Shown in pieces: positions 6,401 through 40,431 of a stretch of 64,000 bases of DNA (its first letter is position 1; every line of letters starts with the position of its first letter). This stretch comes from Favolaschia claudopus (lineage: Eukaryota; Basidiomycota; Agaricomycetes; Agaricales; Mycenaceae), in NCBI GenBank assembly GCA_037176885.1, contig JAWWNJ010000004.1, positions 2,914,001-2,978,000 on the forward strand. Reading direction: 5' to 3'. The position numbers were made by a program, and so were the translations under genes. The notes under the pieces were generated by a model. It made no database searches. It worked only from the letters and a program-made list of their open reading frames with translations, and was not told the origin of the DNA.

Positions 6401-8325
6401 ATACATTGTTAACATAGCAGAGAAAGACATGGAACGAAGAAGAGGGAAATGCCCAGCACGCAACTCACGTAATGATTGGTTTAGTCTTCGGCTTCGGACC
6501 GATGCATGACACAGAGCAGGAATGAGCAACCAAATGTTCAGACGTTCTTTGGCTGGTGTTTATGGTGCTGAAAAAGCACTGGTTGAGGTGTACATCGCGG
6601 TTTAACGTAAATAGATGGAAGTGTCTTCCGAATTAACATGACACATCAGCAATGACTAAATCGTTGTTTGCACTTGTAGAAAAACAGCCCAATGTCCCGT
6701 TTCCTCCACAGTCACTAGGTATATAAGTCACCTAAAGGTTCCCCAAGTACAGTACACACAAGCTGTATTTATTTTGGCAGCAATACAATGTCGAGGAATC
6801 CAGAAAATACAAGCTCGTAAAAGAGATGACATTCCCATCATGCCCATCTGATCATCATGTTGCCTGAAGTTCATCTTCCCCCACACGTAAATAGCTAAAC
6901 CTAAAGGTTCAGCCAATCAACGCCGGAAACAGTTGCCCCTTCGATTCCATTCGCGTTGACGCACTGGCGATAGAAATTGCGCTGCAGTTGCGAAACTTTG
7001 ACAGGGGTAACAGGGGATGATTGTGCGGTACAAAGCCAGGGTGAAAAATGACAACTTTACGAATGGTGTCATCGACCGGAACGAAATACGTCCGTTTACT
7101 TAGGCACTTGTGCTTAACGATTGGTGACTCAACCGACGTTCCGTTCACCACATGGGCATACGCTAGCCAAAGCAGATCAGCACAATTCAAGCGAATAAAC
7201 GGAGTGAGCGTAGCCGTGCATGGATACTGACGAAGCAGTTTCATGAATCTGAAATAATTTATGAGCGACATGCGGAAGAAGAAAAACAGAAAGATGAGAA
7301 ACAAAAACAAAATTGGCATACAGTGCGAGCGGCCCAGTATCCCCACTGCCATCCTTCCTCCGAGTCTCGCGCTGCGCCTCAAGAAGAGTTTCACGGGAAT
7401 CCGTTTCCAAATCGTAACGAACGACATTGATCAATTTTCGGTCAAGCAGGTCGCAAAAATAGATGCCGCCGCAGTCTGCGCGGACACGGTAGCACTCTAC
7501 AGGATCGGCTTCGGGCTCGAAAGTAACCTGAGCCCGCGAATCACCTCGACCCGAACCGCCGAGCCAAGATTCAATGTCCTATGCGAGTCAGAAATGAACG
7601 AAGAATTTGTAGAAACGACCCACCACGTCTTTGAGAAGATTGTCAATGCGACCATTTGCTGCTGCCAGCGATTCGTCCCAGATCGAGTCGCTGAAGTCGA
7701 GAATATATCCGGTCGGAATCTTCTGTACTGGCCAACAAGTTGGAATTTGATTGTCGAGATATTCGAGCCGATGTACGCGAGTTGATTTGTGAGTTGTGAA
7801 TTGGTGGGTGATGACGCGGACCTGCGACGAAATGTCGGGGTCAAGCCACCGAGTATCCGAGTCGTGAAGCTCCGTCGGATCTAAATTAATTCGGAGTCAG
7901 CGACTTGGAATTCTCATCGAAAAAATACCAAGATATATACCTGTCATCATGTTCAATGAAGGAGAAGGCGAAACTGGCCCAGTTGTTGAGTCTTCGCTCC
8001 ATGGAAGGGGGACATTTCCAGGTGGGTCACGTTCGTCGTCTGAAGACGAGGAATAAACCGAAATTGCCAGACGAAAGAAGGCAGGGTAATAAACCTACCT
8101 GATGGCGACAAGTCCTGCCAATCCGTCGAATCCACAGCTAGTGAATGATTGCACAAATTAGAAAAGATCAGTTAACACAATTACGACGCACCTGTAGGGC
8201 TACTAGCAGCCGAATTATCGTCCGCAAAACCATGGGCATTGTCGGCTTCGCCGTCCGAACCGTCATCAGAGTCGGATAGGATGTCGATTACATCTCTTCC
8301 GTTCTCCCGAACGACGCGTGTACGA
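3456..8325 (-). pseudogene. MULE-like transposase-type gene, main part, broken
   Basis: Downstream part of a multi-exon gene whose first exons lie at 41,331-41,720 beyond element E1. Reading the minus strand: acidic segment (DVIDILSDSDDG, about 8300); exon with DTRWLDPDI (about 7850); CGGIYFCDLLD cysteine motif (about 7480) followed by LEAQRETRR; a VPVDDTIRK...HNHPLLPL segment (about 7070); NANGIEGATVSG (about 6950); FEDDTTFKRL and NEWK (about 5610); MVDMEAAQILGA (about 5330); KSQSNIFPHHWDRTARNTN..GE (about 4900); a coiled coil (4750-4450); a disordered tail. This order matches, from memory, a large unnamed Agaricomycete family. The spaced Asp, Asp and Glu (DDT, VDMEAA, NTNIGE) suggest a DDE transposase fold. 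One-base shifts are likely near 7000 (HNHPLLP to VSQLQRNFY) and near 4070 (FDEFLSK to FVPGLPS), and a stop follows near 6895. It is a decayed copy. The MULE assignment is inference. Confidence 0.65.
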
Positions 8326-9213
8326 TGTCAAGTGTATAATGTGTTATACGTGAGGTCCTCTGGAAGTGACTTTATTCGAGAGTTTCTCAAGGTGCGAGTA
8401 TGGTTGATAGTGTTATGAAATATAAAGAAAATCCCTATATGGTTAGTTAGAATCCCAAAGAGGAAGGTAGTGGTTTGTGAGTGTTACGTAAGTGGAAGAG
8501 TCTAAGAATGTGTTAGTAAAACAATAAGGAGCAAGCCTAGGGTGAAATCAGTTGACAGTGTTTCGGCAAACAAGTCTGTGCGTGGAATTGGTAGCAGCAA
8601 TTAACAAATGCGGCTTGTAATATGGTTCAGCAAGAATGCGCGGTACGGATACGGCCGGTGCGGTATAGATACGGTGCGGTGCGGATACGGTTCGGATACG
8701 GTGCGGATACGGTTCGGTGCGGTGCGGATACGGTCCGGTGCGGTACAGATACGGTGCGGATACGGTTCGGTGCGGTTCGGATACGGTTCGGTGCGGTGCG
8801 GATCAGACGGAAGGAAAAGAGAAGTAAAGTGAATTAAATTCTTAACTACGAACAATTGGGCTTTTATACCTACTGGTGCATAGCCTTAAGTCTACTTAGT
8901 CGTTCGTATCTATGGTGCTTGGTAATTGCACAGTCGTGCACAGTTGCTGATTCGTCCGATTCGTAAGTTGCACAGTCCGAGCACAGTTGATGTATAAGTG
9001 CACAGTCGAGCACAGCTGCTGACTCGTATGATTCGTAAGTGCATAGTCCGTGCACAGTTGCTGACTCGTTTCATTGCTTGAGCACTGTTTTGCACAGTCC
9101 GTCTCCGTGGTGAGCATTGGCTGTGTGTTATGCCGATTTTCCCATGATTCCCACCTGATCCTTTCACATGACGTGTTGGCTATCTTATCTCCAAACACTT
9201 TTGGAGGATGACA
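8326..9213 (-). repeat. E1 3' LTR (888 bp)
   Basis: Matches 40432-41330 throughout except for one missing 11-bp unit (GATACGGTTCG) in its internal minisatellite. Begins TGTCAAG and ends GGATGACA on the plus strand, giving the TG..CA and inverted TGTCA/TGACA ends of an LTR. Confidence 0.92.
8640..8804 (+). repeat. minisatellite inside E1 LTR (left copy)
   Basis: Interspersed units GGTGCGGATAC and GGTTCGGATAC in an array of about 165 bp. The array is open in several frames on both strands, giving RIRFGAV-like artefact peptides that should not be taken as genes. The right LTR holds one more 11-bp unit at about 40,745-40,920. Confidence 0.85.
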
Positions 9214-9232
9214 TCCGCGGGGAACGAAATAG

Positions 9233-9248
9233 CGACCGTCCTCGGTCG
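9233..9248 (-). promoter_or_regulatory. LTR-proximal hairpin of E1
   Basis: CGACCG-TCCT-CGGTCG on the plus strand: a perfect 6-bp stem with a 4-nt TCCT loop, starting 19 nt inside the 3' LTR. The same architecture with different stem bases occurs in E2 (18101-18118), inside E2 (23759-23776) and in E3 (21767-21784). The 19 nt between LTR and stem (9214-9232) would be the polypurine tract region, but here the sense strand is pyrimidine-rich, unlike E2 and E3. Confidence 0.7.
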
Positions 9249-9419
9249 AAACTTCCAATGCAGAATGGAAAGGATTGTGAGATTTCAAGCTACTAGGGTA
9301 AGCGAGAAATCGAAAGGTGCCACATAGAGAGGGATTTGAACGAACGGTGCTGCAATGTAGGTATATGGAATGGTAGGGAATGTGGATACGTTGTTCGTAA
9401 GCAGAAATTGTATATTTGT
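9249..9419. other. E1 3' untranslated region
   Basis: Lies between the hairpin and the end of the last sense ORF. No other feature recognised. Confidence 0.4.
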
Positions 9420-10277
9420 TTAGACTGCAAAGGGGGCGGCGGGGATGAACGACTCCGGTTTGAGAATGGGTATGGAAGGTGCGGCTCCCCGGACACGGAA
9501 GCTCCGAGCCAATGCCTTGCCAAACTTTTGAATCGAAGCGCGGAACTTTAATGAAGCCGGGAGCGGATGGAAGTAAGTGGCGGGAAGTTTAGCATAAATA
9601 AAACGGCGGTCGATATGGCGTTCCATGCGCAGATATACCCACTCCTGAGGGTCTGCCTGGCTCAGGAATCGCATATTGTGGACGCGGCGCACATCGTCGG
9701 TGATCTGCCAGCGCCCGGACAACGCCCCAAAGCATTCTACCTCGTCTCCAGCCTTCAAACGATGTATCATGCGGTCACGAACTTCGACCACATGCTCTTT
9801 GGCGCTCGGCCAGAAAAAGATTCGAGGGGTGGAGTCGGAGTGGAATTGCGACGCACGCCGGTTGTATTCCTGGTCATCGACCCAAAGCTTGTGCGACTCG
9901 ATGAGGTGGAGGCGAAAGTTTGGCACTTTGGGGAGGGCAAGATAAGGATGCAGGAAAGTGTAGCCTACGGCCGGTTGGTTCTCGACAGGAATCCAGTTGG
10001 CGGCGGAGGTTACCGGTGTCGTGGGGGTCAGACAGATATTATCCAAGGTGGGTGTCAACTGGTCAAAGTCGGAGGTGCGCTCAGGGCTTGCCTCCTTAGA
10101 TGTCTGTGGTGGTGTAGGCGGAAGTGACTCTAAAGAAGAGTTCGTGCTGAACACCACCACACTCTCGGAGAAGCTGAGATTTCGGGTGCGAGCGCGGGTG
10201 GTACGAATGTTAGGAAGGGACCGGAGGGCGCTGGTCCGCCATCCTAGTGAAGGTGCCACAATGTGCATGTCATTCAT
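9420..10277 (-). CDS. E1 ORF5, unknown protein downstream of pol
   Basis: Sense-strand frame of about 285 codons from ATG 10277 to the stop at 9420, the last ORF before the 3' LTR. The N-terminal half is low-complexity and Ser/Thr/Pro-rich. The C-terminal half looks folded, with WVYLRMERHIDRRFIYAKLPATYFHPLP-type composition and a basic tail (GKALARSFRVRG). I do not recognise the family. Position after integrase is where some Gypsy elements carry env-like or accessory genes, but I see no signal peptide or membrane segment, so an envelope role is not supported. A preceding frame (10461-10270, ..NNNKHICIHDNHDRHD..) overlaps its start and may be a 5' exon. Confidence 0.45.
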   Translation of the reverse strand: MNDMHIVAPSLGWRTSALRSLPNIRTTRARTRNLSFSESVVVFSTNSSLESLPPTPPQTSKEASPERTSDFDQLTPTLDNICLTPTTPVTSAANWIPVENQPAVGYTFLHPYLALPKVPNFRLHLIESHKLWVDDQEYNRRASQFHSDSTPRIFFWPSAKEHVVEVRDRMIHRLKAGDEVECFGALSGRWQITDDVRRVHNMRFLSQADPQEWVYLRMERHIDRRFIYAKLPATYFHPLPASLKFRASIQKFGKALARSFRVRGAAPSIPILKPESFIPAAPFAV

Positions 10278-10904
10278 CACTCGGTAACGGGGGTCGGGAT
10301 CCTGGTAGTGCCCAGCCCCATTGACCGTTAATGCCTATAATGTCGTGTCGGTCATGATTGTCATGAATACAGATGTGTTTATTGTTATTTTTCGAGGCTA
10401 CGCACCGAATTACTGACGGATCGTCGAGGAAGTGGTTCTTCATAGCGAGGCTGGTTTCCAATGAAGTGGTGGTCCATAGCGCCTTTGTCTTTTATGGATT
10501 ATGTACAGGTTTCAAGGTACAGAGGAGAGCAGGGGCGAACAAGAGCCTCGCTTCCTTTACCTCTTGTCGTTATATATTATGGGTGGGTGGTCGGGCAGGC
10601 TGCGACTTTCTGACATTTCCCTGCATTCTGTCATTTTGGTTTTGTTCAGGCGATCCTCTCCCGACAGATTTGAGATTCTCGGTGGTGCAGATCGTGTAAT
10701 CATTCCTGGAACACTATTCTAGATTCGCGAAGTCCCCGCTTTGATGCCTCGTTCTGATGTTTGATACCGAAGTTCGAGGATTTTTAGGAAGAGACGGAGA
10801 CAATTTTGGAGGTTCGCATGGAAGAAATCGATTGGTAATTCACATTTTTATGTATCGGCTGAGGGGAGGGGGTAACGAATAATGAAAGTTCGAAAGGACC
10901 GTTC

Positions 10905-11900
10905 CTAGGTATAGTATGCCATCTGGGAATAGTGAACGGGCTCGTAGTAGTAGACTCCCTCCTCTTCCTCGTAAACGGTCGCCATGTCCGAGTCCTCCTG
11001 GAAATAAAATTTGGCAGATCCTTCTACCAGCTGTGTGGTTAAGAATTGAACGTCCAGGCTGGGAGGTGGCATGTCGACGCAGAAGGCTGGGAACGCCACA
11101 GTGCACGGATCCTGATGAACGCTTTCGCGGAACAGGAGGAGAACAAATCCGTCCCACGACCAAAGCCAGCGCAAGGCCACCCATTCGCCCACAAGCGCAC
11201 GAGTGAAGGCGAACTTTGATCCTACAGAAATAGGACGCCGAAAGTCGAAGGGCGCGACATAGCTGTAGAGACTTCCACACAGAAGACGAATGCTGATTTC
11301 GACGGGGGTAGGATCGACTGGCTGGATGTCGGCCCAGTGCTGGGCTAAGACGTGGTCGGGAAGGTGGATCGGGTGTCCAGGGGGAGGAGAATGGATTTCG
11401 ATGGGATGAGTGTGGACTGGGTGATAGGTCGTGTCACCATTGTGAGAGGACGTGATGGCCGAATTGTCTCCTGCATTACTTTCCAAGTCCATATCGGCCT
11501 CACCATCGTCATCCTCGCTGCAAGTCTCGTACTCCCCATCGGTGTCGGAGTCGGTAGTATTCGGGTCCGTGGTGTCTGTATGGCGGTCCGGCTCCGAGAT
11601 ACGCACCCCCGGGCCTGGGTGCAGCGATGGCCATTGGTCGAGAAAGTCCGCAGCGCTAATGCCGGTCGGGACAGAGGGCGGGGTCGCTGGCGGACCTTCG
11701 GCGTCGGACACCATTCGACCTTTAGCTTGAGAGGATAGTCGGAGAGCAAGGACGGGATCGTTATTGACATGTCTGCGCAATGCTGCTGGCAGATGCGCAT
11801 TGTCTTCAGGGCTCGGCTGGAGCGATGAGGCTTCTAGGCCAGTGTTGGGAGCGGATGGCAACTGCAGGGTTGCAAAAGGTTCGAGGTCAAGTAGATCCAT
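10905..11900 (-). CDS. E1 ORF4, unknown acidic protein downstream of pol
   Basis: Sense-strand frame from ATG 11900 (MDLLDLEPFATL) to the stop at 10905, about 331 aa. The first half is acidic and disordered (SDTDGEYETCSEDDDGEADMD). The second half has a globular-looking segment with many aromatic residues (ALRWLWSWDGFVLLLFRESVHQD), ending in a Tyr-rich tail (EEEEGVYYYEP). It lies 108 bp beyond the end of the pol frame, in the same orientation. No family recognised. The TE context suggests an accessory protein, which is inference from position only. Confidence 0.45.
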   Translation of the reverse strand: MDLLDLEPFATLQLPSAPNTGLEASSLQPSPEDNAHLPAALRRHVNNDPVLALRLSSQAKGRMVSDAEGPPATPPSVPTGISAADFLDQWPSLHPGPGVRISEPDRHTDTTDPNTTDSDTDGEYETCSEDDDGEADMDLESNAGDNSAITSSHNGDTTYHPVHTHPIEIHSPPPGHPIHLPDHVLAQHWADIQPVDPTPVEISIRLLCGSLYSYVAPFDFRRPISVGSKFAFTRALVGEWVALRWLWSWDGFVLLLFRESVHQDPCTVAFPAFCVDMPPPSLDVQFLTTQLVEGSAKFYFQEDSDMATVYEEEEGVYYYEPVHYSQMAYYT

Positions 11901-12008
11901 GGGATCTGGGAGCGTATACGGAAATCGATTCTGATTCTGGAAGCTTTTATAGAGAGAGAGGCAGCGCAATCTGCCATGGCGAAGTTGCTGTGGATCCTGG
12001 AATAGCTC

Positions 12009-15000
12009 TTACATTCCCTCGTCTTCCGTGGTGTCCGCAGAATCCTCTGACTCAGAGCTAGATGATGTTTCAGACTCTTCGGTGGCTGCTTCATCTTCGT
12101 CGTTTCCCATGTATCCCATTTTCATGAACCAATGGTCTCGAGTGATGAACGGAAGAAGCCGAAAGGCAGCGGCGGGGTTACGTTTGAACATGGTGCCGTC
12201 CAATTCCTTTAAAGTGTAAGCGCCTCCTTTAGTCTTTCGGTGTACCTCATATGGTCCCAAGTATCGGTCGTCTGTTTTGTGGGTGATACTGTAGGTGGTT
12301 TCGTTTTTAGTGTTTCGTAATAGCACCAGCTCTCCTGGCGTGTAATCTGCCTTTACCAGTCTTCGCTTGAAACGTTTCTCGAATTGTGCCTTGGAAGCGA
12401 ATCTAGACTTTCGCAACGTTTCTGCTGCTCGTTCTATGTCGGCAGGGTGCATGCGTAGCTGGCGAATGCGTAGTGCTAATAATTCGGTGGTGCTCATGCC
12501 AGAGTAGAACCCTTCCACAAGAAATGTGGCTTCAGTCAAATCCATAGGCAATAGGGGCTGGGTGGCATGCAAGAGCTCAAATGGGGAATAACCAGTCACA
12601 CTGCTGACCGTGATTCGATCCGCAAATACCGCCGCTGGCAACAGATCGGGCCATCGTGTCAATTTTCCTTGACATGCCCTTACCAGGGCCTCCCTAAGAG
12701 TGAAGTGGCCGCGCTCGACAACTCCGTTCGCATGCTTATTATAGCGTGAGATTCTGATCTGCGGAATATGCAATCGCTTCATTAATGATTCGAAGGCCGC
12801 GGCTACCTCTGATCCATTATCAGTGGTTACCTGGAGAGGGCATCCGTAGCGGCAGTATATGTTGGTAAAGAAAAAGTCAGCCATGGTAGAGGCGTTCTGC
12901 GTGGCCAAAGGTCGAGCCTCACAAAATCCAGTCAGGTCATCTCGTGCTGCTACAATCATGTTATAGCCTTTTGCCGGAGGCATTCGCATGACGTCAATGT
13001 AAATCTTGCTAAAAATAGTGATTGGTAAGGATACTGTCGGCGGAATCTCCATTTTCTTTGTAGAGCGTACTTGGCAATTTGGACAGGATGCTACATGATG
13101 CTGAACATCCGCTCGTAAATGTGGCCAAAAGAATCGCGGTTTCAGATGATTCCACACAGTATCTGCACCTTTGTGCCCTAAGTTCTCATGCCCTTGAGTG
13201 AGGACTGTTAGGCGAGAATTTGGTTCCATGATGACAAGCTGAGGAGCTTTATCGCCGTTACGCCTCCAAATCTTCCCATGCTTTTCGAAAAACTTTGTGG
13301 CTTTTGAAATGAATCGCCTCTGTCTTTGTGCGGAACTGAAATTAGGCATTTCTAGAGTTCGCAAAAATCGAATGATGTCTTCCATTTCGTGTTCTTGGGC
13401 TCGGCGAGTCATTAATACCTGGAGTCGCTTCTTGATGACCTCCTTATATCCGCAAGTCTCGAAATACTGTCGTATGGGTGCGAAGTATCGCGGTTGTTTC
13501 ATTCCAAATAAAACAATCTGATCGAGCCATTCATCATCATCGTCTGGGGCCTCTTCCCCATCTGCGCGTGATCGCCGTGATAAGGCGTCAGGTCCTTGGA
13601 ATTTGGTAGCGGGAACATGGAGTAGTTGGAAGGTAAACATTAGGATTCCTTGAATCCATCGATTTACTGCTGCATCAGGTTGCAAATCGGGATTGTTCAA
13701 GAGTCCTTGAATAAACTTGGCATCAACTTCTACGCGGAATGTTTTAATTCCAATGATGTATAAGCGCCAATGACGAAGTGCTCGGTAAAGTCCGAATAGT
13801 TCCAGCTTTGGCTGGGAATATCGTGACTCGCGGTCACTCATGGGGATAGAGCCATATCTGGCAATTCGCCGTCGGTTCCGCTCATCTAGCTGTGACAGAA
13901 TCATTCCAGTGGCAATCTTGCTTGAGTCTACCGATAGGTACACGGCCAGTTCTGATTCATAGTCGATGGGCCTCAGCGCAGGTGGCGAAACTAGGAGTTG
14001 CTTGAGAGCTATAAAAGCCTCAGCTCGGCGTTCGTTCCAAATAAAGAGTTCGTTCTTTCGGTATAGTTCCGTAAGTGGGCGTATGAGTCCTGAATAATTG
14101 GGAATCCATATCCGAATGGTTCCGCACAGCCCTAGAAATCTCCTGACTTCTTGCGGATTAGTCAATATGGGCCAGTCCAAAATAGCCGATAGTTTCTTGG
14201 GGTCAGGAATGCGCCCTGCAGCATTGCATGTCTGTCCTACGATCAAGACCTCAGAACGGCATATCTGAGTCTTCATTCCAGAAACCGTGGCTCCCGCACA
14301 CTTCAGTTTATGTAGAATGCGGTGGACATCCTGAGCATGTTCCCAGATGAAACGGCGGATATCGGAGTTTCCAGAAATAGTTTCTGGTTTACCATTTTTA
14401 TCCAGATACTGTGATTTTGGTCCTTTGATTGGTAAGTCATCAATGAAAATGTTGGCGATATGCGGAATTTCATCGTGTAACACGAACACCATACATTTTT
14501 GAAATTCTGCAGGCGAGTTGGTGAATCCAGTGGGCATTGATGCAATTCGAAGAAGTCCTAACGGGGTCATGAATGCTGTCATGTCTCTGCTTTCGGGATC
14601 CATTTGTCGGGCGTCGAACCCCCAATACAGGTCAAAAACCGTATAACACTGGCGTGCTGCAAAACCCTCAACGAAGTCATCAAGAATTGGAAGCATACCC
14701 GCGTCCCGAATGGTGACTTTGTTTAATGGCTGCAAATCATGTACAATGCGTAGCTTTCCGTTTTTCTTCAAGACACAAAACCATCGTGAGCGATAGGATG
14801 ATTGGCAGGGTTCGTAGACACCTGCCTCCATTTTGAGTTTGAGAACTTCAATGACTTTGGTTAGAATTCCGGGCGGTATAGGAATATTTTTGTATTCCCA
14901 TGGTACATGTGGTACCGTTGAAATTTTGTATGGGCTAAAATAGGTTTCTTTGAAGGTGCCCCTTTCGGAGTCCTCAAAGGCAATAGCTTCCTCGTTCGTT

Positions 15001-15476
15001 TTGAGGATGAATTCAAATAGACGGGTTTCAGACTCGGTAAGAAATCCCTTAGTGTTCAGTTCTAAGGATTCTAGTCGTGACTGGGTTAATCGCTGTCCGG
15101 GGGTAAATTCGGGTGGATCCGTAGGCAGCGGTGGTAGTGATTTCAGTGGGTCCTCTGGAATTGTTCGCCTTACCGCGTAATCAGGCGAAAAGGTAGTCGA
15201 CACAGGACGCACCTTTTTGTCCACTCGTTTGTACATCGTGAAAGCCTGATAACTTTCTCCTTTCTCATCGCACATTTCTACCGGGTAGAAGATGAACTCG
15301 TCATCTTCTTCCAGCGCAAATTCGTCTTCTTCTTTTTGTAGGTGCGTAGAGCGAGGTTCTGCATAAAACCTGGCCGTATGCAACGCAAGTACATAAGGTT
15401 CGGATTCTCTCTTCATTTTAAAATCCGGCTTATGGTTGTTAGAGTTAACGGACTGGGCCAAATACGATCGAAGCAT
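12009..15476 (-). CDS. pol: E1 Pol: reverse transcriptase, RNase H, integrase
   Basis: Single intact frame of 1155 aa. Order along the protein: linker; RT (about 190-440) with IVHDLQPLNKVTIRDAG, DLYWGFDARQ and the catalytic box FIDDLP; RNase H-like domain (about 505-630) with SVDSSKIATGMILSQ, HWRLYI and VEVDAKFIQGLL, ending HVPATKFQGPDALSRR; integrase zinc finger (HENLGHKGAD...CPNCQ); DDE core with YIDVM, TDNGSEV and NGVVERGHF; and a GPY/F module (RYLGPYEVHRKTKGGAYTLKELDG). There is no chromodomain. The protease is not in this frame but in ORF2 upstream, so expression needs a separate start, splicing or frameshift. All catalytic positions I can check are present, so the enzyme could be active. 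RT resembles E2's, including an insertion after the IDD box ending IRRFIWEH. Confidence 0.93.
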   Translation of the reverse strand: MLRSYLAQSVNSNNHKPDFKMKRESEPYVLALHTARFYAEPRSTHLQKEEDEFALEEDDEFIFYPVEMCDEKGESYQAFTMYKRVDKKVRPVSTTFSPDYAVRRTIPEDPLKSLPPLPTDPPEFTPGQRLTQSRLESLELNTKGFLTESETRLFEFILKTNEEAIAFEDSERGTFKETYFSPYKISTVPHVPWEYKNIPIPPGILTKVIEVLKLKMEAGVYEPCQSSYRSRWFCVLKKNGKLRIVHDLQPLNKVTIRDAGMLPILDDFVEGFAARQCYTVFDLYWGFDARQMDPESRDMTAFMTPLGLLRIASMPTGFTNSPAEFQKCMVFVLHDEIPHIANIFIDDLPIKGPKSQYLDKNGKPETISGNSDIRRFIWEHAQDVHRILHKLKCAGATVSGMKTQICRSEVLIVGQTCNAAGRIPDPKKLSAILDWPILTNPQEVRRFLGLCGTIRIWIPNYSGLIRPLTELYRKNELFIWNERRAEAFIALKQLLVSPPALRPIDYESELAVYLSVDSSKIATGMILSQLDERNRRRIARYGSIPMSDRESRYSQPKLELFGLYRALRHWRLYIIGIKTFRVEVDAKFIQGLLNNPDLQPDAAVNRWIQGILMFTFQLLHVPATKFQGPDALSRRSRADGEEAPDDDDEWLDQIVLFGMKQPRYFAPIRQYFETCGYKEVIKKRLQVLMTRRAQEHEMEDIIRFLRTLEMPNFSSAQRQRRFISKATKFFEKHGKIWRRNGDKAPQLVIMEPNSRLTVLTQGHENLGHKGADTVWNHLKPRFFWPHLRADVQHHVASCPNCQVRSTKKMEIPPTVSLPITIFSKIYIDVMRMPPAKGYNMIVAARDDLTGFCEARPLATQNASTMADFFFTNIYCRYGCPLQVTTDNGSEVAAAFESLMKRLHIPQIRISRYNKHANGVVERGHFTLREALVRACQGKLTRWPDLLPAAVFADRITVSSVTGYSPFELLHATQPLLPMDLTEATFLVEGFYSGMSTTELLALRIRQLRMHPADIERAAETLRKSRFASKAQFEKRFKRRLVKADYTPGELVLLRNTKNETTYSITHKTDDRYLGPYEVHRKTKGGAYTLKELDGTMFKRNPAAAFRLLPFITRDHWFMKMGYMGNDEDEAATEESETSSSSESEDSADTTEDEGM

Positions 15477-15920
15477 TGCATTGATTTGGTTCGAGAATAC
15501 AGGCGACGACTCGTAAGATGATGAGGAGGAAAAACATATACAGAATGCGTAAATTTCGTCGAGTGGAATGTATCGTATCGTGGAGTTCAGTTGAAATCCA
15601 CGCCGCTACTCGGAAGAAAACCAAGGAAATACCTGTCAAATTTCGTCGAGCGTATCGTAGCGTATCCTCGTATGATGGCGAGGCTGCAGCTCGGAAGGAA
15701 CTGTAACAAACGGAAGAAGGCGGGGGAAGGATGGCTAACAGAGGGGAGACTCGTACAGGTTCGTAATTTCGTAAGGGAGTCGTTAATAGTAACGGGTCGT
15801 ATGTTCGTAAGTGAGTCTGCAAGGAGGAGAAGAAAGATATGATTCGAGGTCTTGATGCGCTGAAGACATTCAACGCGGCAGGTGTCCAAGTCGAGTTGCC
15901 AGGTTGTTGTTGTGTGTAGA
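15477..15920. other. E1 spacer between ORF2 tail and pol
   Basis: Contains repeated CGTATCGT/GTTCGTAA motifs and an open minus-strand frame of about 169 codons (15954-15445) with no recognisable features. Probably untranslated leader for pol. Confidence 0.35.
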
Positions 15921-16655
15921 TCAGTCGTCGTCCCAGATCGCCCAAAAGTCCCAACGCTCCACTATTGAGTCGTGGTATACCCAGAAGGGAAATTCGGTGT
16001 GGTAGGGTCGCTCGCCAGGTGCGTAATCTATCGCGTTTGAGAACGTCCGCGGGGAACGAAAGAAATTGGGACTTACTGCGCTCATACGGCCACCAGTCAT
16101 TTACGAAGGCGTAATACCATGTTCCGCCCTCCCCGGGAGGGTCCAGCAGACGGTGTATTTCCAGAACGAAATGAAGAAATAGGGGGACTCACGGAACCAC
16201 GACCCACGGGAGGACTAGGGTGCCGATCCATAGGCGTTCCAGTTCGGCTATAAGAATGCACGCGACGACCCCTGGCGGGAGGTAGTCGCGTTCCTCGACT
16301 CGCACTATTTGAGCGAGGATGGGGTTCTCCAACTCCCTGCGATGGTGTTCCGTAAGCTTGCGGACGAAAAAGAAAGGAAGGATGGCTTACGTCCAGATGG
16401 GCTCGAGCTCCCGCAGAACGACCAGCAGCCCGTGGCGCGGGTACGGCTTTTGCAGGGGTAGGAGTAGCGACGATGCGGGTGGAACTAGGTGTGGCGACGT
16501 CTGGCGTCTGGTGGTTGAAATCGAGCATTCCCCCGTGAAGGAGATTAAGAATCACCTGCGTGTCGCGGAAACGAAGGCTGAGCATGTCGTGAATGACGTC
16601 GACCACGCGATGATGACCGTGGCTTTGATGGACTTCGCTGAGAAGGCGGAGACGG
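15921..16655 (-). CDS. E1 ORF2, 3' part (after E2), probably spliced
   Basis: Continues the 33887-38836 frame once E2 and one ACGG are removed (..EQNR-LRLLSEVHQSHGHH..). After about 50 codons the coding potential hops between frames through short segments with plausible intron borders: LLVVLRELEPIWT ends at a GTAAGC donor, LTEHHRRELENPILAQ follows an AG, LVLPWVVVP ends at GTGAGT, TWYYAFVNDWWPYER ends at GTAAGT, and the last exon runs PYHTEFPFWVYHD...WDFWAIWDDD to a stop at 15921. It is Trp/Tyr-rich and resembles nothing I know. These introns are on the element's sense strand, so full-length unspliced RNA must be what is reverse transcribed. Confidence 0.45.
16046..16061 (+). repeat. second copy of the E1 LTR-adjacent 16-mer
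   Basis: TCCGCGGGGAACGAAA is identical to 9214-9229, the bases directly inside the 3' LTR. This copy sits in a candidate intron of ORF2 and is not followed by a hairpin. Confidence 0.6.
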
Positions 16656-18081
16656 TGAAACGCTTGCTATTGGTTTACTGTATAACTTTATTCGTAGAGA
16701 TAATAAATCCCTTCAAACAAAATCCACACAACTTCAGCTTCGCGTGCGAGTCGGGGTTCCAGTAACGTATCTACTGTGGCAATCTGACTATATTCCTCAA
16801 TCCGAGGATATATGTTATACAATTCAAGGTGTCTTGACTCGATTAAACTTGCTTTGAGTTGGCGCGACTCAATCCTATTTGAGCCTTTCGAACTCAGGAC
16901 TTAGTTTTTCGCAATGTCGGTTGGTTGTAGGAGTCTAGGTAATTTATCTTGTTCGAGTTTCCTTTCAATCCGATGGAATATGGCACTTGACTGTTAAGTC
17001 GCGCTTAATCCCTTGTACTCGCGTTTTCCTTTATCTCAGAATTCCGTTTCACGCGTCTGATTCCCGTTCAAGTTCACTTAGTTCACGCGTTTAACAAATC
17101 TCTGATCAAATCACAAGTCCAATTTATAGATTGAAAACAAAACAGAAAACTAGTTAAGTTCCCTGGGTTGTCCCACTGGATGTGAACACTTCTTACTGAA
17201 CGTGCGGCTGATAGCTTACACGTACAATCAAGGAGGGAGCAATCCACTGGAGCCCAGCTAATAATTTACAGGCTTTATATACTACGCTCGAATAAATATT
17301 TACATCTTAATTGGGTATCTACCTACGTGTCCTGGTACGTGTATTGTCCTTATTTAGCAGACGAGGCTGTTAAGTCACACCTGTGTGTCGTGGTTGCACG
17401 CGCGAGTAACGTGTAAGTACACGAGGAGTCACTATCGCATTTATCGCGTCGATCCCTCGTGATGGTCACGTGTGCGTGATGGATCCTCCGATCCTTGACT
17501 CGATACTGGCTTCTATCCCACTCATCGCGGCTAGCCTTTCGAGGATACGAATGTTCCTGCTACGTGCCTCGCCTCGAGGTAAGGTCCTTCCGGTCCTTGC
17601 CAGAACTTCTAATTCGCCCTGAGTAGAGAAATCTCCTCAAGATCATTGATCCTATGATGATCCGCTCTTCGGCATCTTCGGCAATCCTTCTGCCGCTACT
17701 CGGTCTCCCTTGGTTCGTCGTTCCGTGACTCGAATCCCTTGATCTTGGTCTAGACGCGCTGCCTAAGTATTCCTCCAATGTTATCCCATGTTCCTTGATG
17801 TCCCCTTAGGTCCCAATTCAATTGGTAGAATGGTTAGACTTAGAAGAGGGATTGATATCCTCGACTACCGTGTACGAGTACCCATTTCTGGATAATCATA
17901 AGTCGTAGACAAGTCTAGCTTTCCTTGCATCATTTAGTTAACAGCGCGGGTACGCTTTAACCCTCTGAGATATATTCCAAGAGATGTCCATATATTCCTC
18001 TTAGTTCAAACACGCGTTATATAATATTAAACATGTTCAAAAATTGAGAAAACACGGGGTGTTTTCATCCCAGGTCTATCA
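16656..18081 (-). repeat. E2 3' LTR (1426 bp)
   Basis: Near-identical to 32461-33886. Begins TGAAACGC and ends CAGGTCTATCA on the plus strand. No credible ORF: the 72-codon minus frame found in both copies is only LTR sequence. Confidence 0.95.
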
Positions 18082-18099
18082 TCTCCCCATTTCATAAAT
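18082..18099 (-). promoter_or_regulatory. E2 polypurine tract
   Basis: The sense strand reads ATTTATGAAATGGGGAGA directly before the LTR start TGATAGAC. A purine-rich run at this place is the expected primer for plus-strand DNA synthesis. A 17-nt identical copy lies at 23741-23757. Confidence 0.8.
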
Positions 18100-18100
18100 C

Positions 18101-18118
18101 TCGAGCGTCCCCGCTCGA
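18101..18118 (-). promoter_or_regulatory. LTR-proximal hairpin of E2
   Basis: TCGAGCG-TCCC-CGCTCGA on the plus strand: a 7-bp perfect stem and TCCC loop, starting 19 nt inside the LTR. On the element's RNA the loop is GGGA, a GNRA tetraloop. Confidence 0.75.
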
Positions 18119-18583
18119 TTCTGCACGCGCGCTATCCCAATCTCGAGGACGTAAGTTTGATTACGTCACGGCTGACACTCCTGAGGTTACCCGAGCGGAA
18201 CTATTTCTCACTTTGATCTAGTTACTATTATGGTAATCCTCGTCTCGGTTAATCCCAATTCTTTATCCTTCAACGCGGAACGACTCTTTATCAAGGTAGA
18301 GCTACTTAAGAGCCACTGCTGCCCTTATTGTCATTGAGATGACTAGTATTCACGTGTTTGACATGCGTCCGCGCTGATTTTGCCCTTTTCTAGGCCAGTT
18401 TTGGAATTTTCCTCGACATATTCATTTGTCGCGGCTTCGAAGAAGCAGCGCAAATTCGGTGAGAATCTGGGCTTGAGACTTCTTAGAGCTTATCATTTCC
18501 GTGGGAGATGGTCCGTGCGCGACTGTATTGGCTGCGCAACTAAGGACAAATTCCCATCTTTTTCTCTCTTCCTTTCCACCACC
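18119..18583. other. E2 3' region, likely promoter of antisense gene A
   Basis: No ORF of note. It lies between the hairpin and the ATG of the plus-strand gene and should hold that gene's promoter and 5' leader. Confidence 0.35.
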
Positions 18584-21537
18584 ATGGACCTCTCCGACAA
18601 GTTCCCTGCTATCCGCGACCTGGCTCGTAGGAAGTTCGGCCTCCCACCGTCTTACGGCGCGAGCTCCCCTCCTCTTTTAATCACCGAAGATCACGTCAAG
18701 ACTCCGCCTAAGACACCGTACTATCCTCTACACTCTGCCGAGGCTGGCCCACCGCTTCCTCTTTCGAAAGACGACCTCGAAGCCCTAGCTTACCTCGAGC
18801 ACCCAACGGTCATCCGCTTCTTGGGTTTCCTCAAGGACCGTAGTCGCATTCTTCGCGCTAGTCCGGCTTTCTTGCAAGCTATTACCGACGACATTCGTCC
18901 CGTCCTAGTAAGTCGTCTATTCTCTTTTGTTCCCCTTTGCTTTTGGAAGCTCATTCGCTCTTTCTCAGACCAACTTCCGCGAAAATCACTTCAACTCCGT
19001 GCCCTTGACGCCGCTCTTGCGTAGGGTTTTGTGCGGTATCGCGCAGGTTGTCGAGATCGGTCGCGTCAACAAACTTGTGACGCTTCCAATCGAGTCCAAG
19101 TTTTTGCTTCCCGCCTCTCTTCGCGACGATACTCAACGCCCGTGGATTAAAGTGAGTGTTGTGCCTATTTCTATATTCCGCTCCTGAAACCGTTATTTAG
19201 GAGGGGACTCTCCCAATGAACTTCCAGTTTGCACACTCCTTCAATCATTACCGAGATCATCTTATCGAAGACCCTTTGTTCTCTCCGGCTGAACACAACC
19301 TCCTCTTCGAGGCTAGAACCGAGGAGCTGGACGAGCTGTGCCTCCTTCACGACGAACTCGTCCCTCTCCGTGCTGAAAACGTTCCCGTGGCCGACGACGA
19401 CCTTCCCCGCGTTGTCAAAGTACTCGACAGGGCTGCCCCCGATTTCGTGAGTTTGACATCTCGATTCCTAGATTTTGATACTCATGCCACCTTTTTCTAG
19501 CTCGAGATTATCGAACACATCAACAAGGACACGCCCTTCACCCGCCGCTTTACTAACACGATGCTTTCTCTCATAGACATCGTTCCCGAGGACCATCACC
19601 CCTATGGTTGGAAGTACTGTTTTAAGGCACGCCCCGCTCAGGTATGTCTCTCCAGGTTTTTCTCTACGCCAACTTATTCCCTTTTCCCTTTTAGATGACC
19701 GAATTCTTGCCCGTCGGTTTCCGGTTCCCTACCACGAAGTTTGGTTATAGCCGTGAACCGTTTCCACTGCTCAACCTGAAGGATCACGGCGACCCTATCG
19801 CGGATGCCTGGATCTTTCATTGCGACGAGGCGCGCCGTGAAGCCAAACCCCCTAGTCCACCAGCTACTCCCACCAAACGCAGCAAAGGTCGTTCCCGTCA
19901 TTCTTCCGCTCATCCTGAGCCGCCTTCGCCCGCGTCGATAGCTATGAACTTGAAGATCCAGAAAGACGAGCTCCTTCGCGCCTCGGAGAAAGAACCTCTC
20001 TTTCTACCTTCGGATTCCCCGGTGTCCGACCATGCTCCGGTCGAGGAGGACCCCCTTTTATTGCAGGTGCCTCAACCTCCCGTTGTCGTGGTGGTCCCAG
20101 CGCTCCCTCGTCCTGGTTCCACTTCTGGAACCCCCAGGTCGATCCTAAAGGTTCGTTAATTTTCTACGTCCCCGTTTTTATCATGTTTTAATTTCTTCTT
20201 AGAAATCCGCCGTTCCTGCGCGCCAATTCTCTGTTCCTCCAGTGGAGACAGAGATTTCCTCGCCTCAGGACGACGCTCCCCGTAATCCTAAAAAGCGCTC
20301 CTCCTCGCTGGTTTCAACCGTGAGTAGATCTTGCAGATCCCGTTTCCGATCAAATTTTCTTATCTAATCTAAACTTCTCCAGCGTCCTCAAATCAACATG
20401 TCCTCGCGCGATCGCGCTGAGTCCGTCGAGGTTGGTTTGGACTTCCCAAACGGTCCCGCAGAAACCGCTTCGTCACCACCTGCCGATCTCGAGGCCTCCG
20501 ATGGTGAAGACGAGCTTTCAGATAACGACCGCCCTCAAAAACGTCAGAAGATGTCGGCTCGCGGCAGCACGTCCACTCCGTCTCCCTCGAAGAGGGGACG
20601 CGGCAAGGCCGCTGCCGTTCCTGAGGAGACTGTAATTCTCTCGGACGGCAAGCTTATTGCCAAGAACCCAGAGTCATTCTTTCCTCCATCCTCGCGCGTT
20701 CATCGTACTGGTAATACTGGACCTCTCCTTCCTGCCGGCGCCGAACCGATCAAGGTCGAAAAACTCTCGAACGTCCTGACTCTAGCCAAGTCGGATAATC
20801 TCTTGGTAAGTTCTTCTATTTAATCGTTTTCAACTCGCGCTAATCCTTAATTACTCTTAGCTCAACGGCCCTTGCCTCCCCTGCCTTCAGAGCACCCGCG
20901 ACTGCGAACACGGCATGTTCGTTCGCTGTGACAACTGCGCCAAGAAGCATGGTTCCCACTGCAATCATAGCTTCACCGCTAAGGAGCAGAAGGGTTTGGC
21001 TCGCGCCCTCGAACCATATTCAAGATTATCGATGAACCGTATGTTGTTCCCTTTAAATTCCTTTATTTGTCATTTCTGACCCAATCCTCAGGCGTAAACT
21101 CGGAGATCGACGCGTTTTCGGACGCGTTTGAGATCTACGAGGGCCTTCGAAAACCGTTCCTCAAGGCGCGTGAGCTGGTGATCTCGCTTGGGGCGACCGT
21201 TGGGGCTCGCCTTCGCGAGAATATAACCGCATACGGCCCAGAGAACGTGCCGGGGCTCGAGGATTTGTCGGATGAGAACCGCGAGGCGGTGATGCGTGCC
21301 TGGGGAGAAGGTGTAAACCTTCTCGCGCCAGAGGCCGAAGTTTCCGGACATTCTTCTCCAATCAACGTCGAAGACGACGAGGAGGATGTCGAGGAGTTGG
21401 CTCACGCTGCTGAAGAGTCGCGCCGTTCTCATCGTCGCGCGCAGGGTCCCGTCTCTGACCCCGGCGCTGGTTCTTCTCGTGGTCCCATCCGGATTTCGCC
21501 GCGCAGGAACAAGGGGATGAAGGAGGACGAGAACTAG
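18584..21537 (+). CDS. E2 antisense gene A: 837-aa protein with Zn2Cys6-like cluster
   Basis: Nine exons join without error: 18584-18907, 18969-19151, 19201-19446, 19501-19641, 19695-20150, 20203-20319, 20383-20805, 20861-21038 and 21092-21537 (2514 nt, 838 codons). All introns are GT..AG and about 50-60 nt. The start sits in CACCATGG. Exon 1 begins MDLSDKFPAIRDLARRKFG. The middle is a disordered Pro/Ser/Lys-rich region with a basic patch (PQKRQKM, SPSKRGRGKA). Exon 8 encodes C-X2-C-X6-C-X7-C-X2-C-X7-C followed by His, close to the fungal Zn(II)2Cys6 spacing. The C-terminus has a helical stretch and an acidic segment (NVEDDEEDVEEL). Family unknown. A DNA- or nucleic-acid-binding role is suggested by the Cys cluster and basic patch only. 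It is transcribed against the retrotransposon, so its introns survive reverse transcription. Confidence 0.8.
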
Positions 21538-21602
21538 TCGCGTTGGTGAATTTTCGCGTAAGTCCCGTTTTCCTTTCTTCATTTCTTTTCCCTTTAACGC
21601 GT

Positions 21603-21748
21603 TAATGTGCATGTGATCGTGCCAGCTTTGAAAATACAAGATAAAAGAGTGATTCCACTGGGATTCGAACCCAGGACCTCTCCAGTTTCCGTCTGGATAT
21701 TGTTCTGATGCTCTACCACTGAGCTATGGAACCGACGCCAGTCTATCA
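21603..21748 (-). repeat. E3 LTR, left (3') copy, 146 bp
   Basis: I see no difference from 22060-22205. More than half of it is the tRNA-like unit. Confidence 0.93.
21650..21733 (-). tRNA. tRNA-like Pol III unit in E3 left LTR (isotype unassigned)
   Basis: 84 nt. A 7-bp acceptor stem (GGTTCCA with TGGAATC, one G-T pair) and A at position 73. D arm TA-GCTC-AGTGGTA-GAGC contains the A box TAGCTCAGTGG. T arm CTGGG-TTCGAAT-CCCAG contains the B box GGTTCGAATCC. A TTTT run follows 5 nt after the 3' end, as in a Pol III terminator. The anticodon region is abnormal: 34 nt between position 26 and the T stem, with a good hairpin TCCAG-ACGGAAA-CTGGA offset by 11 extra nt and no T at position 33. It is either a tRNA with an unusual intron or, more likely, a tRNA-derived promoter module that is no longer a working tRNA. 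Confidence 0.65.
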
Positions 21749-21766
21749 TCTCCCCTTTTTCAGAGA

Positions 21767-21784
21767 TGTGACGTCCCCGTCACA
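21767..21784 (-). promoter_or_regulatory. LTR-proximal hairpin of E3
   Basis: TGTGACG-TCCC-CGTCACA: a 7-bp perfect stem with TCCC loop, starting 18 nt inside the 3' LTR. Same loop and position as in E2, different stem. Confidence 0.75.
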
Positions 21785-22039
21785 CTATTCCCCTTGTGAA
21801 CATTGTTGATAACAACCCACTTTCCCGTTCTAGCTTATCTGGATTGCGTGCACTCGCTTGTACAGCTGCTCACACGACTCCACCAGACCCGAACTGCCAG
21901 AAATGGACTGCTTATCAAATTGGATCACAACACAGAACAGTGATCAGAACACTCAATCACTTGATTTCATCGCTTTTACAATCACACAGTTCAATTTGTT
22001 TTGCTTGGGCAAACAGGGACAAATTTCTTTGTTTGTTTG

Positions 22040-22057
22040 CCCTCGCGGTGGGCTCCA
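22040..22057 (-). promoter_or_regulatory. E3 primer-binding site
   Basis: The plus strand reads CCCTCGCGGTGGGCTCCA, so the sense strand begins TGGAGCCC, complementary to a tRNA 3' end with T at position 73. Two nt (TC) separate it from the 5' LTR. Confidence 0.85.
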
Positions 22058-22059
22058 GA

Positions 22060-22205
22060 TAATGTGCATGTGATCGTGCCAGCTTTGAAAATACAAGATA
22101 AAAGAGTGATTCCACTGGGATTCGAACCCAGGACCTCTCCAGTTTCCGTCTGGATATTGTTCTGATGCTCTACCACTGAGCTATGGAACCGACGCCAGTC
22201 TATCA
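22060..22205 (-). repeat. E3 LTR, right (5') copy, 146 bp
   Basis: Direct repeat of 21603-21748, ending in CTATCA at 22205 and followed by the GCGT duplication. Confidence 0.93.
22107..22190 (-). tRNA. tRNA-like Pol III unit in E3 right LTR (isotype unassigned)
   Basis: Second copy of the 84-nt unit, same sequence as 21650-21733, with the TTTT run downstream. In the 5' LTR it could drive a short Pol III transcript that would stop inside the LTR unless the terminator is read through. Confidence 0.65.
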
Positions 22206-22594
22206 GCGTCTTAGTAGAAATTTATAAATAGCTACTGCCGTCCGTCGCGCGCATCTTTTGCGCTAAAATTTTTCTTTTACATGTACCGCTGCTCTCCACG
22301 ATGAATACATTCCGTGGATATTCCATAGTATTTTGTACGCGCGTTCGCGCAGGCCGAACAATACACGGTATTGCCTGCAAACTTAAAGTGTGAGATCGAG
22401 ATTATCTTAAGTCAATTTTTAGCCGCTCAAGATAATCAGCGCGCCAACTCGCGTGTTTGATTATTGATGACGTTTGACCCATCAAGGGAGCAACCGGTCC
22501 AATTGTTCCGAGTACTCCTTTGAGAAAAGATTCACACGATCACTCATATTTAAGTTTTGTCTCGACTTGATTTTCCTTAGGCTTGTAATCCTTC
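22206..22594. other. E2 3' region between E3 and antisense gene B
   Basis: No feature recognised. Probably 5' sequence of gene B, with the displaced 3' end of gene A on the far side of E3. Confidence 0.3.
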
Positions 22595-23259
22595 ATGATC
22601 ACCCCCAATACGCCCAACATCTTCGACGCTACTACTTCGCCTGGTTGCTGGCCTATGGCCCATCCTGCTGCCTATAAACGCGCTCCAGACTTCTTGAACT
22701 ATATGAAGATGCTCGCGCTTAATGGCGTATGTTCTCTTCAAGATTTCCCTCTTTGCGACGAGGCTAACATTACTCCAGTTCTTTCGGAAGTGCACGAATT
22801 GTCGTCGCTTCAAATTGGTTTGCCAAAACGAAGGCTGGGGCAAACCATGTCTCGAGTGCACGACTACTGGAAATATCTGCCCTCTCGCAGAACGCTCTGA
22901 ATTCGTATGCCACATCAAGATGGAGCGCGAGAAATACCTCCATAATTTCTGCGGTCCTGGTGCGTCTCCCCTTGACTCTTTCTTGAGTCGTTCTAACAGT
23001 AATCAATTCAGACCGCGAGGAGGGTCTTATCCAGTTCTACGCCAATGCCCTTCAAGCTTTTATGGCGTTCGATAAAGCGGCCAACCCTGAGGCCAAGAAC
23101 TTTCGTCGCGACGGATTTGTAGGACACTTGTCCTTGATTTCCGACCCTTGGGCTGTTCAGTTCCTCGTTGATCATGTTGATCATCCTGACTTTGATTTTA
23201 CTGTGGTAGAGAGACAGGCTATTATGTTCCAAGCCTCCCTTGTTTCTGTACCTATGTAG
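22595..23259 (+). CDS. E2 antisense gene B: 186-aa protein with Zn2Cys6-type cluster
   Basis: Three exons, 22595-22726, 22779-22959 and 23012-23259, join in frame (561 nt) with GT..AG introns of about 52 nt. Exon 2 encodes a cysteine cluster C-X2-C-X6-C-X8-C-X2-C-X6-C (KCTNCRRFKLVC...CLECTTTGNIC). This fits the spacing of the fungal Zn(II)2Cys6 binuclear cluster, including the basic RRFK between Cys 2 and 3. The remainder (MEREKYLHNF, then an acidic-aromatic C-terminal domain) is not recognised. It could bind DNA as a small transcription factor, or be a nucleic-acid-binding retrotransposon protein. The first reading follows from the motif, the second from context. Confidence 0.75.
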
Positions 23260-23740
23260 ACCTGTACTTTTCCTTAGTACACGATACACCTTAAATCTAC
23301 GTCTCGCGACGGAATTTCCTTATTGATCTTGTTATGACAAAATTGACGTGTGAAGTCCGATCGAAGTCATGACTTAGTCGATCTCTCGTGACTTTGTCGT
23401 GACTTTTTATGATCGAGTCGCGCCAATTCTGTCTTCTTAGTTCAATCGGATTCCTTCCCGCGTGTAAATCTACGACAACCGATGTCCAGATTGCGTGTCC
23501 TGGGCTTAAGTCACGCGAGATCCTTGATGTATCACGTTTTCTTCCCTTAGGCGGTATATTCTTCCGCGTAGGCAAAGGAAACTCGTGACTTTTGATCGCG
23601 GTCACGTTTCTCAGGAACCCAGTAATTACGCGCGAGTCGAATCTCGACTCTGTATCCATAGGCTTCGTGCCACGTCTTCTTACGTGTCTAGAGAATAACC
23701 AATGAAGTCTCGCCTGACTTTGACGCGATTTACTAGTCCC
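23260..23740. other. E2 spacer between antisense genes B and C
   Basis: Rich in CGCG and TCGTGACT motifs. An open minus frame (23659-23297) has no recognisable content. Nothing else seen. Confidence 0.3.
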
Positions 23741-23776
23741 CTCCCCATTTCATAAATTTTAACTGTCCTCAGTTAA
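23741..23776 (-). promoter_or_regulatory. internal copy of the E2 PPT plus hairpin (possible central PPT)
   Basis: 23741-23757 is identical over 17 nt to the PPT at 18083-18099. It is followed, at the same spacing, by a hairpin TTAACTG-TCCT-CAGTTAA (23759-23776) whose stem differs from that at 18101-18118 but pairs perfectly. It lies 5.7 kb from the 3' LTR and directly upstream of antisense gene C. Confidence 0.7.
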
Positions 23777-23781
23777 CACGT

Positions 23782-32440: not shown

Positions 32441-32458
32441 CCCTCGCGGTGGGCTCCA
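32441..32458 (-). promoter_or_regulatory. E2 primer-binding site
   Basis: CCCTCGCGGTGGGCTCCA on the plus strand, identical to the E3 and E1 sites, 2 nt from the LTR. It fits the last 18 nt of a tRNA with CTCGC in the T stem, GGTGGGC acceptor strand, T73 and CCA. I cannot name the tRNA. Confidence 0.88.
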
Positions 32459-32460
32459 GA

Positions 32461-40409: not shown

Positions 40410-40427
40410 CCCTCGCGGTGGGCTCCA
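40410..40427 (-). promoter_or_regulatory. E1 primer-binding site
   Basis: Identical 18-mer to the E2 and E3 sites, separated from the 5' LTR (starting at 40432) by 4 nt. Confidence 0.87.
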
Positions 40428-40431
40428 ATGA

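Follow-up and report, generated by a model that had tools for sequence, protein, structure and literature searches.

An RGGA-loop hairpin with covarying stems beside the presumed plus-strand start of nested LTR retrotransposons in Favolaschia claudopus

Known cis signals directly 5′ of a polypurine tract (PPT), beside U3, include the U-box or T-box and, in fission-yeast Tf elements, the TCTT before the PPT (PMC10085805; this and the other papers cited are represented here by excerpts of their text). They are sequence motifs, thought to help define the plus-strand primer. RNase H is described as choosing the PPT in a genome-length hybrid chiefly through the geometry of this tract and of the sequence on either side (PMC5371799). 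Here we analysed 64,000 nt of the Favolaschia claudopus genome (C4:2914001-2978000; hereafter the window), in which three nested long terminal repeat (LTR) retrotransposons, E1, E2 and E3, carry at the same place a covarying hairpin with a conserved loop instead of such a motif. Compared with the U-box and T-box, the spacers are mixed in T content (GATTTATGAAAT-type partly T-rich, GAGCAAAGAAT-type not). The preliminary description of this DNA knew of no such element in Gypsy retrotransposons, and a search of one literature collection, in which several result lists were limited to the best-ranked entries (in one case 12 of 1,462), turned up no PPT-adjacent hairpin of this kind. The word hairpin is also absent from the excerpted text of a review on plus-strand synthesis (PMC3185511). 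The comparisons below suggest a previously undescribed structural replication signal.

Other systems share single features with it. The Conserved Hairpin Site of GalEa elements (fungal Copia, PMC5445492) is likewise a hairpin kept across LTR retrotransposon families. However, it lies behind the 5′ LTR of elements without a primer-binding site (PBS) and has conserved stem letters and a variable loop, whereas the window elements have a PBS and the Gypsy gene order, and their hairpin stands before the 3′ LTR with a conserved loop and a variable stem; they do not qualify as GalEa. The SL2 and SL3 psi hairpins of HIV-1 (GGUG and GGAG, PMC7599994) resemble ours in their G-rich tetraloop, short stem and possible role as a zinc-knuckle ligand, but they belong to the 5′ leader and have no tie to a PPT; our hairpins are PPT-tied, and nucleocapsid (NC) could conceivably bind them. 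An internal second PPT copy, apparent in E2 and in a family with the stem TTGAGTG, recalls the central PPT of retroviruses and Ty1 (PMC5371799); unlike there, each PPT copy here has its own hairpin. As for the 3′ stem-loops of long and short interspersed nuclear elements (PMC5135761), a 3′ RNA stem-loop is proposed to be read by reverse transcriptase (RT), but that system is target-primed and non-LTR. For Helenus, a terminal-repeat retrotransposon in miniature (TRIM), the excerpted main text (PMC10886601) mentions no hairpin or palindrome, and stem-loop occurs there once, in a reference title.

E3 lies within E2 and E2 within E1 (E1 8324-41330, E2 16656-33886, E3 21603-22205), and their PBS is on the minus strand. 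This orientation upholds the earlier reading of the TCCC or TCCT loop as GGGA or AGGA (RGGA, R being A or G) in the RNA. All four hairpins first reported are present as written, with a stem of 6 bp in E1 and 7 bp in the other three. They and the tracts beside them are as follows.

9233..9248, minus strand: E1 terminal hairpin, CGACCG-AGGA-CGGTCG (sense), 6 bp
9214..9232, minus strand: E1 spacer and non-canonical plus-strand start tract CTATTTCGTTCCCCGCGGA, not polypurine
18101..18118, minus strand: E2 terminal hairpin, TCGAGCG-GGGA-CGCTCGA, 7 bp
18082..18100, minus strand: E2 spacer and PPT GATTTATGAAATGGGGAGA
23759..23776, minus strand: E2 internal hairpin, TTAACTG-AGGA-CAGTTAA, 7 bp
23740..23758, minus strand: E2 internal PPT and spacer AATTTATGAAATGGGGAGG
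21767..21784, minus strand: E3 terminal hairpin, TGTGACG-GGGA-CGTCACA, 7 bp
21749..21766, minus strand: E3 spacer and PPT TCTCTGAAAAAGGGGAGA

On the sense strand of the window, exactly these four are perfect RGGA tetraloop hairpins with a stem of at least 6 bp, compared to 0.2 expected by chance (first-order Markov, 40 versions of the window). With any loop, 31 perfect tetraloop stems of at least 6 bp occur on that strand against a Markov mean of 16.4, and the window is therefore hairpin-rich in general.

The PBS TGGAGCCCACCGCGAGGG, common to E1, E2 and E3, has 682 copies in the genome (264.6 Mb) and none in a reversed control. For a hairpin-blind sample, LTR starts were taken from PBS-anchored copies, two of them were searched, and the bases before the LTRs were fetched. 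The hairpin was found in 43 of 44 LTRs from four further families. The L007 family carries CAACCG-RGGA-CGGTTG in 13/13 (LTR pairs chosen by 9.8-18.8 kb same-strand spacing, a subset of pairs being fetched), and the L005 family carries TCAACTC-GGGA-GAGTTGA, its closing pair flipped to C-G, in 27/27 from the first 100 of 224 LTR places. In the L006 family, CTGACTG-GGGA-CAGTCAG is present in 2/3, the third being without a PPT, and the L001 family has TAGACCG-GGGA-CGGTCTA in 1/1 (L088). With the stem at nearly every sampled LTR end, the selection on structure first proposed from four hairpins holds up. At 5′-LTR flanks, no RGGA hairpin was seen in nine cases (seven distinct); one of them, L149, has an unrelated 6-bp stem.

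Searching with the loop and PPT as a pattern, stem unspecified, gave 189 genome matches versus 0 in the control (pattern lists hold the first 100 places at most). Among 29 loci read, 23 are LTR ends, 22 of them with perfect stems and one (L074) with a single mismatch, and they add the stems TTGAGTG, TTGACCG and TAGACCG; the other six (L059, L067, L068, L073, L081, L082), none with a complete stem, do not look like LTR ends when inspected by eye. L108 and L109 match the pattern without a stem. The families of L060, L070, L076 and L106 were found by pattern and not through the PBS, which they may share. The hairpin precedes the PPT or its substitute in all 12 LTR-start types read, several of which were found using the loop in the search pattern. 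Relatives of E1 carry CGACCG, GCGACCG, GCGACTG (with G-U), GCAACCG and CAACCG stems, paired in 13/13 with E1 counted; the query contained the E1 start tract, which recurs in all 13 loci. The E2 terminal hairpin is perfect in 29/30 loci read of 38 matches (E2 counted, hairpin in the query), and the E3 stem recurs in a TRIM-like stretch inside L012. Screening 75 distinct junction 60-mers, we obtained 50 fully paired RGGA hairpins, two of them through G-U. The remaining 25 are three decayed LTR ends (L021, L074 and L058, whose hairpin has a 5-nt loop) and 22 other string occurrences, by eye not LTR ends, of which 9 lack a hairpin and 13 have weak, non-matching stems. Copies of one family are almost the same in sequence, and their counts cannot be treated as independent tests.

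A covariation test had been proposed in the preliminary description; run in this genome, it finds that the stems covary beyond both shuffled and slid controls. Across 20 distinct hairpins (decayed L021 and L074 included), 95.0% of cells are paired, and compensatory change is present on both sides in all seven stem pairs. Double-change cells number 32 versus 8.4 in shuffles. The covariation score is 0.668 versus 0.216, with 0/500 shuffles as high, and the number of pair types was reached in 1/500 shuffles. When partners were slid by 1-3 columns, at most 33.8% were paired. Sets of nine and eight sequences agree, except that the pair-type number of the eight-sequence set falls within the shuffles (178/500). 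The stems had been called unrelated yet perfectly paired; the pairing stands, but across families the stems are not entirely unrelated, most of them varying around NNRACYG with compensated pairs.

These figures bear on whether a chance palindrome was simply inherited among related copies. Near-identical copies within a family and related rows do inflate the covariation counts, and choosing rows as hairpins favours pairing. The stems of L005, L006, L007 and L001 in the set, however, come from the hairpin-blind sampling, and the compensatory change in 7/7 pairs is between families. In addition, R2, a covariance model whose training set had E1 relatives but no sequence of the window, ranks three of the four window hairpins as its best matches in 64 kb; it missed E3 at E<=1. 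In a set of 29 loci, R2 gave 10 matches, of which four had served to train it (L053, L060, L070 and L076) and two are E2 and E1 of the window itself (L014 and L044, respectively); it also missed there the E3-type hairpins of L009, L012, L013 and L063. A second model, R1, was trained on the four window hairpins, and its window matches are not independent evidence. We regard the chance palindrome as having a negligible probability, and the stem-loop structure is almost certainly under selection.

The strand on which pairing survives bears on a signal at the DNA level, in which a cruciform or palindrome would serve integrase or end plus-strand displacement synthesis. Perfect stems can fold in either strand, and in the decayed E2 copy L021 (loop GGAA) one pair survives solely as a wobble of the opposite strand. 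In L054 and L138, by contrast, the sense RNA is the one strand in which the pair withstands a one-sided change, through G-U. The ends of the LTRs are where integrase acts, whereas the hairpin is internal to the element. A DNA-level signal is thus quite improbable. Integrase recognition and an identity tag, both among the roles listed earlier, found no support, as the internal stem TTAACTG is common to two families and the two stems of one element differ.

The position of the hairpin is narrowly confined. Its stem base lies 19, 19 and 18 nt from the 3′ LTR in E1, E2 and E3; across families the spacing, reported as fixed, is near-fixed. In 14 terminal types, the distance to U3 is 24-27 nt from the loop end (sd 0.9) and 17-21 nt from the stem base; in L144, with a longer G run, the loop stands at 28 nt. 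Computed energies of the stem, over all 16 listed types, span -4.5 to -13.0 kcal/mol. Loop and position vary less than stem strength does, and members of one family may differ in having A or G as the first base of the loop (L076/L088, L092/L101).

This geometry raised the question of whether the hairpin is a mechanical pause, at which minus-strand RT would stall with its RNase H parked over the PPT/U3 border, the loop serving fold stability. The polymerase and RNase H sites of HIV-1 RT are 17-18 nt apart, near the 17-21 nt measured from stem base to border, and a pause would account for the missing polypurine tract of E1 and the L007 elements described below. But the stem stability varies almost threefold, the weak TTAACTG-AGGA-CAGTTAA (-4.5 kcal/mol) is intact in 17/17 fetched E2-type copies, and the near-invariant GGA of the loop is unexplained by stability alone. 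The corresponding spacing in Ty3 RT, about 13 bp (PMC5371799), also speaks against a pause, which we consider improbable.

The tract beside the hairpin differs among families. At the U3 border, E1 and its relatives read TTTCGTTCCCCGCGGA|TG and the L007 family TTTCGCGTGCCCCGCGGA|TG, in place of the polypurine tract seen in E2 and E3; the other families have GGGGAGA|TG or AGGGAGA|TG. The hairpin distance is unchanged in E1-like and L007 elements despite the absent purine tract. In the E1-like and L007-like elements (9214-9232; L044-L056, L092-L105), the tract replacing it is pyrimidine-rich and ends in CCCCGCGGA|TG.

E2 also has a second, internal site. Its internal module has 37 full-length and 3 partial genome matches (40 scored of 83 candidates). 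All 20 matches fetched of the 40 listed carry TTAACTG-RGGA-CAGTTAA, the query having contained the hairpin. In 17/20 the PPT letters are those of E2 (ATGAAATGGGG or one variant with GGGAAG), while 3/20, the partial matches, carry the PPT letters of the TTGAGTG family (ATGAAAAGGGG) and lie with that family. The internal and terminal sites are about 5.0 kb apart in E2 copies (e.g. C5), and two TTGAGTG-family internal modules lie about 5.5 kb upstream of the terminal PPT (C7, C66). E2 uses ATGAAATGGGG at both sites; the two modules of an element resemble each other in the PPT but not in the stem. By sequence, hairpin and PPT are one unit at both presumed plus-strand starts of E2 and the TTGAGTG family.

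The stretch between the two PPT modules of E2 (18119-23740, about 5 kb) has open frames on the strand opposite gag-pol. Four of these antisense frames, when tested, had no Pfam match; they are reminiscent of the antisense genes in plant Retand elements (PMC11963269). The hairpin could accordingly be a control element (promoter, 5′ untranslated region or terminator) of such frames, given the plus-strand open frames between and beside the E2 hairpins. Yet the 603-bp E3 is too small for such genes, and in all families the hairpin faces the PPT at a near-constant distance, which makes antisense control very improbable.

Since the hairpin keeps a near-constant distance from both PPTs and is present where the PPT differs, we favour the view that it acts in cis, as an RNA element of the site where plus strands are initiated, its loop being read by an element protein. 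We hold this reading tentatively, with slightly less than even confidence. The carriers of the hairpin appear to be one Ty3/Gypsy lineage and TRIMs of at least one kind that have the PBS in common with it. The module would run from the hairpin through a 17-21 nt spacer with the PPT to U3. The 6-7 bp stem would be a mere scaffold, its letters drifting through compensated changes, and would display the RGGA loop on the 5′ side of the plus-strand start, at a distance of about 24-27 nt. RT/RNase H, or Gag-NC passing the RNA to RT, may grip the loop on the genomic RNA, and this grip would lead RNase H to cut at the PPT/U3 border, so that the plus-strand primer released there has set ends. Where the module is present twice, plus strands would also be initiated within the element, in a central-PPT-like manner. 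Positioning of the plus-strand primer was one of the roles first listed, and it is preferred here as the hairpin accompanies the internal PPT and persists without a polypurine tract. A stronger version, that the RGGA hairpin and not polypurine resistance to RNase H is the primary determinant of the plus-strand start, is possible but unlikely; it would explain how E1-like and L007-like elements could carry a pyrimidine-rich tract and others gain a second internal start. We know of no LTR element with structure-guided choice of the plus-strand primer.

Several points weigh against plus-strand initiation. By the time the primer is cut, minus-strand DNA is already paired with the genomic RNA, and the hairpin would have to act before or during synthesis of that strand. 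The Ty3 RT spacing noted above is mismatched with 17-21 nt here too. One of the 44 LTRs in the hairpin-blind sample, L134 (an L006-type LTR, solo or truncated), has neither PPT nor hairpin, and decayed copies exist (L021, L074, L058). The evidence consists of sequence comparison and computation, and genome-wide it comes from a single genome.

The loop itself fits a packaging signal as well, with a zinc knuckle of Gag binding the exposed Gs of RGGA and selecting genomic and TRIM RNA. The loop is conserved while the stem is free, the TRIM E3 retains the hairpin, the gag-side frame of E2 encodes a CCHC knuckle, and HIV-1 NC binds GGAG and GGUG loops (PMC7599994). However, packaging needs neither the near-fixed U3 distance nor the repeat at the internal PPT, six E1 frames tested gave no CCHC match at E<=0.01, and the GGAG loop of HIV-1 is reported to be replaceable without significant effect on packaging or replication (PMC7599994). 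In L012 and L013 (about 1503-1870, PBS orientation), an L005-family leader contains a TRIM-like hairpin, PPT and tRNA-like LTR between two PBS copies. This chimeric leader looks like template switching between TRIM and autonomous RNA and suggests their co-packaging, a further point for the packaging signal, which we judge unlikely overall. Kissing of the RGGA loop with a UCCY in the 5′ leader was discarded as a general rule: GTCCC does occur near the PBS in the E3 and L012 leaders, but neither TCCC nor TCCT is present in the initial 420 nt of the leader in E2, in L006 or in the E2-family copy L003.

The near-fixed distance of the hairpin from both PPTs, its presence in elements free of a purine tract and its retention in a 603-bp parasite point to structure as a determinant, an idea open to testing with purified RT and short RNAs. 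The hairpin is also usable as a marker of 3′ ends and of TRIM-host relations in such genomes.

The remaining parts of the three elements are as follows.

8324..9213, minus strand: E1 3′ LTR, 98.8% identity to 40430-41330
40430..41330, minus strand: E1 5′ LTR, paired with 8324-9213
40410..40427, minus strand: E1 PBS TGGAGCCCACCGCGAGGG
12009..15605, minus strand: E1 pol open frame (RT, RNase H, integrase)
16656..18081, minus strand: E2 3′ LTR, 99.93% identity to 32461-33886
32461..33886, minus strand: E2 5′ LTR, paired with 16656-18081
32441..32458, minus strand: E2 PBS
25665..30524, minus strand: E2 pol open frames, three overlapping frames (weak protease and RT matches, integrase zinc domain)
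21603..21748, minus strand: E3 3′ LTR with tRNA-Ile-like sequence
22060..22205, minus strand: E3 5′ LTR with tRNA-Ile-like sequence
22040..22057, minus strand: E3 PBS

By their protease-RT-RNase H-integrase order between LTRs and their PBS, E1 and E2 classify as Ty3/Gypsy LTR retrotransposons. In E1, Pfam recognises RT, RNase H and an integrase zinc domain, and the best solved relative is Ty3. The matches of E2 are of the same kinds but weaker, with no RNase H match listed in the Pfam search, and we place E2 in Ty3/Gypsy because of its identity to E1 (42% in RT, 36% in integrase). The protease and rve matches of E1 and the RT, rve and protease matches of E2 lie below the Pfam curated cut-offs. 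As the RTs are 42% identical, the hairpin feature is old. The RT active-site stretch reads FIDDLPIKGP in 12009-15605 and YIDDVPIRGG in 27274-29187, with a YLDKNG/YQDKDG stretch downstream in each; this context is unlike that of Ty3.

E3 is a 603-bp TRIM with a PBS, a PPT and two identical LTRs, both of which contain a tRNA-Ile (AAT) sequence. It shares with Helenus the length below 1 kb, the tRNA-derived LTR sequence, the PBS and the PPT. The target duplications of E1, E2 and E3 are all 4 bp by eye (ACGC in E3), and we term E3 Helenus-like, not Helenus, because a 5-bp duplication is reported for fungal Helenus. Rfam at gathering scores over 8000-42000 gave nothing beyond the two tRNA-like sequences of E3. 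For the primer of the PBS TGGAGCCCACCGCGAGGG, a pattern search gave 0 matches to tRNA genes with a perfectly PBS-fitting acceptor stem (wobble pairs and gap-exceeding introns lie outside the pattern). For an internal tRNA-Ser fragment as primer, a second pattern gave 3 matches, none of them tRNA-like by eye.

Copies of TGATAGAC were considered as LTR starts and set aside. Those at 962 and 52412 sit in gene-like sequence without a hairpin, and the copy at 30946, inside E2, has no hairpin either. The window also holds a duplicated gene-like stretch (19-2165 and 51460-53655, 81% identity) with an IDGLDEC motif, NTPase-like by eye. A second inverted repeat is seen by eye just within U3, CTCCAAA-AGTG-TTTGGAG in E1 (9189-9206) and GAAAACAC-CCC-GTGTTTTC in E2; it is present too in L076, L112 and L092, though not in every family.

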